DNA of 64,000 bases from the NCBI GenBank assembly GCA_035530615.1, contig DATKUL010000003.1, positions 310,001-374,000 of the forward strand, in the 5' to 3' direction. The position numbers and the translations under genes were made by a program. Shown here one piece after another: positions 31,091 to 44,610 of the stretch (the first letter of the stretch is position 1; every line of letters begins with the position of its first letter). Source of the DNA: Candidatus Paceibacterota bacterium (GTDB taxonomy: Bacteria > Actinomycetota > Actinomycetes > Nanopelagicales > Nanopelagicaceae). The notes under the pieces are model-generated. The model was not told the DNA's origin. It searched no databases and saw only the letters and a list, made by a program, of their open reading frames with translations.

Positions 31091-31164
31091 CGCGGGGTGG
31101 AGCAGCTCGGTAGCTCGCTGGGCTCATAACCCAGAGGTCGTAGGTTCAAATCCTGCCCCCGCTA
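31091..31164 (+). tRNA. initiator tRNA-Met (CAT)
   Basis: A cloverleaf of 74 nt with CAT anticodon in loop CTCATAA, anticodon stem TGGG/CCCA preceded by the GGG run typical of initiators, and the mismatched C1:U72-type acceptor end (CGCGGGG against CCCCGCT) that marks formyl-Met initiators. CCA is not encoded. Its 3' end is the template for the three downstream scars. Confidence 0.93.
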
Positions 31165-31165
31165 C
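31150..31165 (+). repeat. tRNA 3'-end core (attB-like), original copy
   Basis: ATCCTGCCCCCGCTAC, the T-stem/acceptor 3' end of the initiator tRNA gene, recurs exactly at 35037, 37173 and 44595. The sequence after it (AAGGCTTTGGCTCTTCGCTTA, then GCGGGGGG.CATTG) is also related to the sequence after the first downstream copy. Confidence 0.8.
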
Positions 31166-31402
31166 TAGTACGAAAATCAAGGCTTTGGCTCTTCGCTTAC
31201 GCGGGGGGTCATTGCTTTGTGGGATCCCATAATGAGCACTTGTCGCAGTTATTCCTGAAGCAGCGTAAGACACGATTCCGCAGGACTGATCTTGGGACTT
31301 AATCTAATATGTCAGCCCGTGCGACAACACTTAACTCGCTGGATACGTCCTAGGCTGGCATTCAATTGGCAATGTTACGATGAGAAGCGTGAGGGCAACA
31401 TT

Positions 31403-32299
31403 ATGACTAGACCTCGAATTCCCAATTACCATCGCCAACGTTTCCTCCTGGTTCTGCTGGCACAGGCCGGTGGGTACCTTTCCAAAATAGATTTTCAGAA
31501 GCTCCTATTCCTGTCGCAAGAAGAAACTGAGAAGCCACACTACGATTTTGTTCCTTACCACTATGGATGTTATTCCTTTCAAGCGCAATCTGACATCGAT
31601 TTATTGGAATCTCGCGGTTGGCTTAGAACCGACAATCGCGATATTCGACTATTGGAAGAATCGAATACGTGTATGCCAAGTGTAGATCGTGCCAAGGTTG
31701 CGGATTTTGCCAAGCGTTTCCACGCTTATAGAGGCAAGAAACTCATCAGGTATGTATATGAAAAGTACCCATACTATGCAATAAATAGCAGGATTGCTGA
31801 AGAAATCTTGGATGGAAAAGCCTTTGATCGCGTGGGGGAGGCGAAAAGGGGGCTTGAATTTGAATCAAGTGAGCTTTTCACAATTGGATACGAGGGAATC
31901 ACTTTTGAGAAGTACGTTAATCGTCTAATAAGCAATGATGTGCGCCTCTTATGCGACGTTAGGATAAATCCTCTTAGCCGCAAGTTCGGATTTTCAAAGG
32001 GGACTCTCAGCGCGGTTCTTCCAAAATTGGGCATTGAGTATGTGCATATTCCGGAATTGGGGATTAGCTCGCAACGTCGAAATGGATTGGAAACCAAGGC
32101 AGACTACGCCCGACTGTTTAGGGGGTATAAACGCTCATTGCCGCTCAAGAGGGATAGCTTGAAGGGACTTAATGAACTGTTTGATAGAAGCGGTCGACTT
32201 GCTTTGACCTGCTTTGAGAAGGAGCACGAGGATTGTCACCGACACTGTATTAGCGAATATTTGGAGGATACAAGGGGCATCGAGGCTCATCATTTATGA
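31403..32299 (+). CDS. SocA/Panacea-like + DUF488 fusion protein
   Basis: 298 residues from ATG 31403 (GAGGGC upstream). The N-terminal half (RQRFLLVLLAQAGGYLSKIDFQKLLFLSQEETEKPHYDFVPYHYGCYSFQAQSDI) resembles the Panacea/SocA-like fold found in antitoxins. The C-terminal half (FTIGYEGITFEKYVNRLISNDVRLLCDVRINPLSRKFGFSKGTL...LTCFEKEHEDCHRHCISEYL) is DUF488, with its conserved CDVR-x-x-P, and C-x-E-x4-CHR motifs. Function is unknown. It is coupled by a 4-nt overlap to the next gene and is the first cargo gene after the tRNA. Confidence 0.7.
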   Translation: MTRPRIPNYHRQRFLLVLLAQAGGYLSKIDFQKLLFLSQEETEKPHYDFVPYHYGCYSFQAQSDIDLLESRGWLRTDNRDIRLLEESNTCMPSVDRAKVADFAKRFHAYRGKKLIRYVYEKYPYYAINSRIAEEILDGKAFDRVGEAKRGLEFESSELFTIGYEGITFEKYVNRLISNDVRLLCDVRINPLSRKFGFSKGTLSAVLPKLGIEYVHIPELGISSQRRNGLETKADYARLFRGYKRSLPLKRDSLKGLNELFDRSGRLALTCFEKEHEDCHRHCISEYLEDTRGIEAHHL

Positions 32300-42859: not shown

Positions 42860-44487
42860 TGAACCTAATACCGTTAAAGGCCTCGTATTTGCCTAGCGAT
42901 CCAATTGGAATCGAGTTGAAACTTTCCCATAGCGAGGAGGACGGAAAGTATCTCGTGCAACTTTGGCACTTGGACACCTTGATTTCGGAACGAGTGAGTG
43001 CGGACCATAAAGTTGTGTTCGACTCACAGAAATTTGGCGGATACGGCGTCAAGGTACTTGATCCATCTGATAAAACGAGGTGCGTCGGGAGTACATCAAT
43101 TGATGTATTGAATACTCCATTTGAGAGACCGCGCTACGGTTTTGTCGCTGAATTCAGCGAAGGTCGCAGCCCCGAACTGCTCGCGAGAACCGCGAGAAAA
43201 CTGCATCTGAATATGATCCAATTCTATGACTGGGCTTTTAAGTATGCTCAATTGGTACCTGATACGGACAAGTATTTAGACCCTCTAAATCGAGAACTTT
43301 CGCTTGCAACTGTGAGAGGTATGACCAGCGCCTTAGCTAATGTTGGAAGCAAGTCCATGGGATACGCCGCGGTGTATGCCGTAGGTGGAACAGAGTGGGA
43401 TCAGTGGAAGGACGCCGGGCTCTTTAAGACTGACGGTCAACCGCATCGATTCACAGATGACCTCTTGCTTGTAGTAGATCCATCAAATGAGAAGTGGATG
43501 GAACACTTCACGAGTGATCTCAGTCATTCTATGCAAGAAGTCGGTTTTGATGGATTCCATTTGGATTCATATGGCTGGCCAAAGAAGGCATTCAGGTCCG
43601 ATGGAACGATCTGCGATCTCAACCACGCCTTTTCGAATTTGCTCGCAAGAATAAGGAGAAATGTGCCCGACTCCTCCTTTATGTTCAATAACGTAAATGA
43701 CTTTCCTACGTGGTCCACCACGCAAACGGACCAAGACGCTACCTATATTGAAGTATGGGCTCCGCATACGGCTCTTCGGCACCTTGGACTGTTAATTGAC
43801 CGTGCTCGCGCCTGCAGGCCGGGCTTCCCACCGATTCTCGCTGCATATCTTTCCGTTTATTCAAAGGCTCCAGTTTCCGAGGCCGATGATGCAGCCCGAC
43901 TTGTAATGGCAACCATTTTTTCCCATGGCGGCACTCATCTGCTCAATGGAGAGGATGACGTCGTGCTAGTTGATCCTTACTACCCAAAGAATCACAAAGC
44001 GGACGAGTCTACAATTGAAATGATGAGGAATTGGTATGACTTTCACGTCAGATACGGGGATCTTTTGCTAGCACCTGAAGCCATAGACGTCACGCGGTCG
44101 TACACGGGCGGGATAAATGAAGATTTGATCTTCGCGACTCAAGGAGGCCAGGCGCTCGTAACTGATCCTGAGCCGGACGCGGTTTGGGTTAGAGTTGTTA
44201 GCACAGACTTGGGATTGGTAGTCCACCTAATTAACCTCATAGGACAAGAGGAAACGGATTGGGATCGCAGAAAGAACCCGATTCCAGACGTTAAGGGATT
44301 GCGACTCAGAATGCTCAAAACTCTTGGAGTGGATTCGCCGTATCTCGTGGATCCGGAACAATCACCATGGCCTCAACATCTTGATATTAGGGACGATGGA
44401 AGCGACTATCTGGAAATTGACATTCCAGATATTGGGGCTTGGGCAATGGTTGTTCTCCCCAATTCAGAGAGATGGAAAGTTGTCTGA
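42859..44487 (+). CDS. GH66-like dextranase/isomaltooligosaccharide glycosidase
   Basis: 542 residues from GTG 42859, which shares its first base with the GH15 stop and has GGAGAG upstream. GH66 features: PRYGFVAEF, LHLNMIQFYDWAFKYAQLV, MGYAAVYAVG, the nucleophile region VGFDGFHLDSYGWPK, and ATYIEVWAP (candidate acid/base Glu). Secreted GH66 enzymes cut dextran. This one lacks a signal peptide and so acts on imported oligosaccharides. A beta-sandwich domain sits at each end, as usual for the family. Confidence 0.8.
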   Translation: MNLIPLKASYLPSDPIGIELKLSHSEEDGKYLVQLWHLDTLISERVSADHKVVFDSQKFGGYGVKVLDPSDKTRCVGSTSIDVLNTPFERPRYGFVAEFSEGRSPELLARTARKLHLNMIQFYDWAFKYAQLVPDTDKYLDPLNRELSLATVRGMTSALANVGSKSMGYAAVYAVGGTEWDQWKDAGLFKTDGQPHRFTDDLLLVVDPSNEKWMEHFTSDLSHSMQEVGFDGFHLDSYGWPKKAFRSDGTICDLNHAFSNLLARIRRNVPDSSFMFNNVNDFPTWSTTQTDQDATYIEVWAPHTALRHLGLLIDRARACRPGFPPILAAYLSVYSKAPVSEADDAARLVMATIFSHGGTHLLNGEDDVVLVDPYYPKNHKADESTIEMMRNWYDFHVRYGDLLLAPEAIDVTRSYTGGINEDLIFATQGGQALVTDPEPDAVWVRVVSTDLGLVVHLINLIGQEETDWDRRKNPIPDVKGLRLRMLKTLGVDSPYLVDPEQSPWPQHLDIRDDGSDYLEIDIPDIGAWAMVVLPNSERWKVV

Positions 44488-44544
44488 GGTACTAGGTTAT
44501 TTTTCCATGCCCTGCCAACGTCTCCAACGGCATCCAGTTTGACC

Positions 44545-44610
44545 TCTTGAGGAGCCCTTCGCCTGGCGCCGAATGAGATTGGAGGCCTGAGGTCATCCTG
44601 CCCCCGCTAC
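44545..44610 (+). repeat. tRNA-fMet scar C with element-end sequence
   Basis: Core ATCCTGCCCCCGCTAC at 44595-44610, preceded by GAGGTC and by GCGCCGAATGAGATTGGAGGCCT, the scar A/B end sequence in diverged form. This is the right-hand limit of the island tract. Confidence 0.75.

Follow-up and report, generated by a model that had tools for sequence, protein, structure and literature searches.

ICE and IME accretion in tandem is known, and CIMEs are integrase-less units that lie between att sites beside one integration site. Additive flexible genomic islands marked by tRNA 3'-end repeats are described in the account of fGI-2 of Ca. Methylopumilus at tRNA-Lys (PMC10872708), and repeated tRNA 3' ends also figure in the descriptions of islands in Ca. 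Actinomarinales (PMC7771536) and of fGI1 in Alteromonas (PMC4119200). Tycheposons are known from Prochlorococcus, and the first of these accounts also reports them at tRNA-Met in Methylophilaceae (PMC10872708). Across the 2168 genomes surveyed with Islander, tandem arrays of three or more islands were rare, with 4 cases (PMC4383910). The tRNA-repeat islands of streamlined plankton bacteria have usually been described by their repeats alone, with the enzyme left unnamed.

The locus analyzed here lies in a window of 64,000 nucleotides (the whole stretch of DNA studied) from what is probably a freshwater-type actinobacterium, judging by its protein content, its small-genome family and its relative G039, an uncultured actinobacterium. 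The tRNA-fMet gene (CAU; 31091-31165, + strand), identified by an Rfam match, is followed by 13.4 kb of DNA (31166-44610) that very probably consist of three stacked integrative cassettes, none with an integrase, inserted at a single attB, the 3' end of that gene. The last 16 nt of the gene, ATCCTGCCCCCGCTAC, are found on the + strand at 31150 and again at 35037, 37173 and 44595, and matches to this core with up to 2 mismatches number four in the window compared to 0.03 expected from shuffled sequences. The displaced copies (scar 1, 35037-35052; scar 2, 37173-37188; scar 3, 44595-44610) delimit segments of 3.9, 2.1 and 7.4 kb, and RAGGTC directly precedes each of the three; both the positions and the fused RAGGTC had been reported in a preliminary description of this DNA and were found again exactly. 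With respect to the CCA end, the original gene apparently encoded it (CTACCATG, as in G017, the most similar genome sampled; compare 31160-31170 with 44605-44615), the present tRNA-fMet reads CTACTAG, and CCA is kept in the left end of segment 3, such that insertion altered whether CCA is encoded.

Immediately before each scar, alignment and an arm profile revealed a right-end arm (arm 1, 34961-35036; arm 2, 37097-37172; arm 3, 44519-44594; all on the + strand), the three copies being 72-76% identical over 92 nt when the core is included. The shared, non-tRNA sequence noted earlier before each copy was thus real, its extent being about 76 nt instead of about 50. On the other side of the segments, the left ends of segment 1 (31166-31218, + strand, with the terminator-like stem GGCTTTGGCTCTTCGCTTACGCGGGGGGTCATTG) and segment 2 (35053-35105, + strand) fit one left-end pattern and are 83% identical over 69 nt including the core (31150-31218 against 35037-35105). 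The left end of segment 3 (37189-37240, + strand), with a near-perfect terminator stem, has its homolog directly after tRNA-fMet in G005, a member of the same genus. As arms and left ends are both shared, each segment has its own left and right end, which is more than a scar alone. The Rfam search matched two tRNAs and nothing else, the arm included.

To locate these ends elsewhere, an arm profile lacking the tRNA part was run against 296 genomes of the family, yielding four matches, three in the window genome and one in G039, which belongs to another genus; all four copies are fused to the core and located at tRNA-fMet. The left-end pattern was found in three places in this set of 296 genomes, segments 1 and 2 of the window genome and G005, each directly after a tRNA-fMet core (3/3), and within the window's own genome the 92-nt end (arm plus core) was restricted to its three copies. 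These matches tie the end sequences to one site, rather than leaving them scattered away from tRNA-fMet as the preliminary description had considered. A degenerate-pattern scan of genome contigs for further right ends returned only G039 and one chance match inside a Cellulomonas gene, and the exact end pattern was absent from the viral contigs.

The G039 copy also provides a base marker for the position of the crossover. The tRNA-fMet of G039, of G025 from the same genus, and of genomes from other genera (G034, G045, G105 and G026) has an A49-U65 pair (ATAGG...CCTGT), whereas the G039 scar carries C65. This scar is therefore no copy of the end of its host tRNA; the bases up to 65 come from the element, and the crossover lies 3' of position 65 and ahead of the point of divergence, within the last nine bases, CCCCGCTAC. 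A later mutation of the scar could instead have produced the C65/U65 difference. With a crossover in CCCCGCTAC, the 10 nt of the T arm reported as missing three times (RAGGTC-ATCCTGC) are most likely element sequence; the literal alignment does show the gap, and it entails no deletion from a tRNA. As judged from the sequence, the scars are most likely not truncated tRNAs but attR junctions with element DNA as their left part, and the 3' end of the present gene beyond the crossover (all or part of CCCCGCTAC) would now derive from the most proximal element. This position fits the subsite at the T/acceptor junction that was named 'J' with Islander (PMC4383910).

Consistent with the preliminary description, the cargo is unrelated between segments, no gene being repeated among them, and neither Pfam nor recombinase searches found an integrase gene in any of the three. 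The GC content of segments 1, 2 and 3 (46.9, 45.8 and 48.1%) is 2.6 to 3.3 SD below that of the flanks (51-52%), and the genes are probably foreign, with probable functions in defence, secreted proteolysis and sugar uptake. Segment 1 encodes a DUF488 protein (31400-32299, +; PF04343, E 8.6e-25) that matches the PDC-M19A candidate defence family (E 4e-102), followed by a PDC-M19B protein (32296-33126, +; E 1e-109), together a candidate defence pair. On the opposite strand it encodes a protein with a GAGIS N-terminus (33123-34871, -), SIR2-like by eye and with a weak TPR match below the cut-off; the listed reading frame extends to 35006, but translation probably begins at the 34871 ATG, which does not lie in the arm. 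No profile search confirmed the SIR2 identity of this protein. Segment 2 encodes a 570-aa exported protein (35184-36896, -) without a Pfam or NCBIfam match, in which HELIHNFGVDH was recognized by eye as a metzincin-type HExxHxxGxxH motif; its homologs at the tRNA-fMet locus of G005 and G039 share 88% and 44% amino acid identity, respectively. Segment 3 carries a ROK-family regulator (37296-38510, -; PF00480, E 1.5e-43), a sugar ABC transporter (38670-41744, +) made up of a binding protein (PF01547) and two permeases recognized through their homologs, a GH15 family glycosidase (41744-42859, +; PF00723, E 2e-23) and a GH66 family, dextranase-type glycosidase (42775-44487, +; PF13199, E 5.4e-82). 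A similar cluster is found elsewhere in two other genomes, G013 and G015, indicating that this cargo exists outside the island too. Candidate defence, a secreted protease and glucan use are thus a sample of what such cells collect.

A tyrosine integrase beside the same end sequence, which the preliminary description had suggested looking for, was found in G039. There, tRNA-fMet is followed by a 144-aa helix-turn-helix (excisionase-like) protein and by a 669-aa tyrosine recombinase (L032:1857-3866; PF00589, E 1.3e-7; phrog_1 integrase, E 1.9e-21), and the arm plus core, at about 9 kb from the tRNA, closes this 9-kb integrase-bearing element, which makes the arm the right end of an element driven by an integrase. 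The recombinase contains GLRISE, HDFR and LGHAS in order with a following tyrosine, as identified by eye and partly by alignment to a Xer protein, and its residues 533-626 weakly match an excisionase family. Among the six proteins of the element that were scanned, we recognized the integrase and the excisionase-like gene and no conjugation or relaxase family. Behind the G039 scar lies a second inserted unit, with the homolog of the segment 2 gene, and no distal scar was found behind it; G025 lacks both inserted units. G039 is the single genome in which a relative combining an integrase with this right end was found. Its integrase has no homolog beyond itself in the 296 genomes of the order, in phage, plasmid and viral collections or among solved structures, which points to a poorly sampled lineage.

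How cassettes without integrase came to be integrated has two main answers. Each could be a dead relic that lost its own integrase by deletion and no longer moves, an explanation we regard as quite possible while placing it somewhat below even. The window genome (2.16 Mb, 3 contigs) fits such a history, as it contains two full-length Xer-size recombinases (frames of 306 and 307 aa) and two fragments, none of them resembling the G039 integrase, and the three segments show no trace of that integrase at a meaningful E-value. On the other hand, three independent and complete losses that left both ends intact are less simple than mobilization in trans, and segment 2, at 2.1 kb, would have offered little space for an integrase of 2 kb had most of the segment not been replaced. 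Because both ends persist in three units that lack an integrase, one of them just 2.1 kb long, we lean slightly towards mobilization in trans. An 81-aa frame near tRNA-Glu/Asp/Phe genes (C1:471740-471892 of the window genome; L054, L068) matches the C-terminal part of a phage integrase, and another fragment, at C2:545312, has an internal TGA; both are probably remains of other integrated elements.

Comparison with relatives shows how the site looks without the stack. Beyond scar 3, the original chromosome (44611-45636, +) continues with a hypothetical gene (44860-45636) and a Cu-ATPase (45652-47916), in synteny with G002, G017 and others, and in at least 11 members of the genus tRNA-fMet closely adjoins the chromosomal genes that follow scar 3 here, that is, the sites are empty. 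In ten of the genomes the tRNA precedes the Cu-ATPase (G001, G006, G008-G012, G016, G019 and G020), a few hundred bases away (1.7 kb in G019); in G002 the order is tRNA-fMet, hypothetical gene and Cu-ATPase, and in G017 1.2 kb of other sequence separates the tRNA from the same two genes. The CATG that follows the tRNA in G017 is found here after scar 3, the tRNA in the window now preceding TAG, which indicates that the original downstream side was displaced by 13.4 kb. G005 has a different arrangement, with the left end of segment 3 and its ROK gene (91% amino acid identity) directly after tRNA-fMet on contig C15, the DNA being 87% identical over 327 nt from a point about 30 nt beyond the core. 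The gene of segment 2 (88%) is on the Cu-ATPase side on contig C88, with no arm or scar beside it. The order of segments 2 and 3 from the tRNA, taking the two contigs as joined by inference, is therefore opposite to that in the window, and the segments behave as separate units. Homologs of the segment 2 gene in G005 and G039 mean that its family recurs at the tRNA-fMet locus in two genera. Homology between segment 2 and G005 breaks inside the segment, at 35173/35174 and at 36987/36988; the latter break is about 110 nt before the arm, the last 58 nt upstream of the gene are matched perfectly, and a second junction is marked there.

These comparisons bear on whether the 13.4 kb could have arrived at once, as a ready-made composite island with internal junctions. 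Among the genomes compared, where the species is represented once, none was seen with one or two of these exact segments, and the set is found in one species genome only, which would fit a single arrival. However, G005 has the left end of segment 3 on its tRNA without segments 1 and 2 in between and the segment 2 gene on the chromosome-side contig, and the divergence among the arms is 24-28%, which is not expected of copies from one recent event. We thus judge a single arrival improbable. The relatives do not all carry the whole 13 kb, as the preliminary description had left conceivable: empty sites occur in the genus, along with the partial or rearranged site of G005. Its proposal that related elements entered one after the other is supported by the shared ends, the empty sites and G005, with the serial order inferred from the layout and from G005 rather than from strains with zero, one, two or three segments. 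In 6 of the 20 genus members a contig stops no more than 400 nt from the 3' end of the tRNA (random placement would give about 1.1; P ~0.001), an excess that fits strain-level variation at the site and that other assembly problems could also explain. Three genus members have, near the tRNA-fMet island, an inverted-repeat module (TGAACTGAACCCC...GGGGTTCAGTTCA) that may be a terminator or one end of a small transposon, at about 1600-1670 of L049 (G017), right after tRNA-fMet in L051 (G018) and at about 9735-9800 of L100 (G005).

Two genus members, G004 (L039) and G014 (L046), carry other genes after tRNA-fMet with no same-orientation tRNA-end scar of at least 11 nt beside them, suggesting that variation at this locus may have additional sources; this cargo comprises dehydrogenases, ABC transporters and ceramidase-like genes. 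Such sites are what would be expected if slippage or homologous recombination had duplicated tRNA fragments to give the repeats in the window, with the cargo entering through ordinary recombination at a hot spot. We consider that account very unlikely, since non-tRNA arms are common to one side of the repeats and left ends to the other, the G039 scar has C65 where its host tRNA has U65, and an integrase adjoins the same end in G039. Least credible of all is an integron-like cassette array with arm plus core as attC sites, which would account for several cassettes with a similar, imperfect site at the end of each but has against it that no candidate integron integrase exists in the genome beyond the two Xer-size recombinases and none in the segments, that 0 of the 10 base pairs predicted in the arm covary, and that a working tRNA gene ends in the core.

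There is thus strong support for at least three rounds of site-specific integration at tRNA-fMet by a tyrosine integrase. Each cassette would lie between a conserved left end, with a terminator placed after the restored tRNA end, and a 76-nt right-end arm that is likewise conserved. A G039-type tyrosine integrase would have recognized both ends, with strand exchange within CCCCGCTAC, at the acceptor-stem end of the gene. With each integration the tRNA would be rebuilt from attP and the earlier junction pushed outward, which probably makes the segment nearest the tRNA the youngest. A helper would have integrated the cassettes in trans, or their own integrase would have been lost later. Tentatively, and with rather less than even confidence, they may be minimal two-end cassettes captured at tRNA-fMet by a helper with the 669-aa integrase and its excisionase-like C-terminal domain, somewhat as in integrons, with the tRNA as attachment site. 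Identification of both ends, of a nine-base crossover interval and of a candidate integrase makes the mobilization of integrase-less cassettes in trans directly testable.

Compared with the described systems, the stack resembles CIMEs and accreted ICEs in that its integrase-less segments, with recombination sites at both ends, lie next to one integration site. Unlike ICEs and IMEs, neither the segments nor the G039 relative have recognized conjugation or mobilization genes, and the parent element may thus be neither. It shares with Islander islands the intact tDNA, displaced 3' fragments (here three) downstream in the same orientation and the crossover on the T-stem/acceptor side, at the 'J' subsite; in Islander, however, every island must contain an integrase gene, and the three segments, which contain no tyrosine integrase, would be filtered out, whereas the G039 relative does contain one (PMC4383910). 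Tycheposons, compared by description only, are also tRNA-anchored cargo elements of streamlined plankton bacteria that carry a tyrosine recombinase, yet the segments here have no recombinase and the 2.1-kb one is below the 4-200 kb range quoted in that account (PMC10872708). The stack also resembles the additive islands, which as described also have a tRNA target, cassettes that add up and direct tRNA 3'-end repeats at the junctions, with variable gene content at a fixed locus as found here, and of whose hosts Ca. Methylopumilus and Ca. Actinomarinales are likewise streamlined aquatic bacteria. Since tandem tRNA-end repeats are on record for these two and for Alteromonas, islands of this kind are not new, and the tRNA-fMet stack adds a clean new example of a known route by which small genomes collect genes. 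It differs in that those islands are described by their tRNA repeats, whereas here a shared 76-nt arm and a shared left end are present and are tied to a particular integrase.
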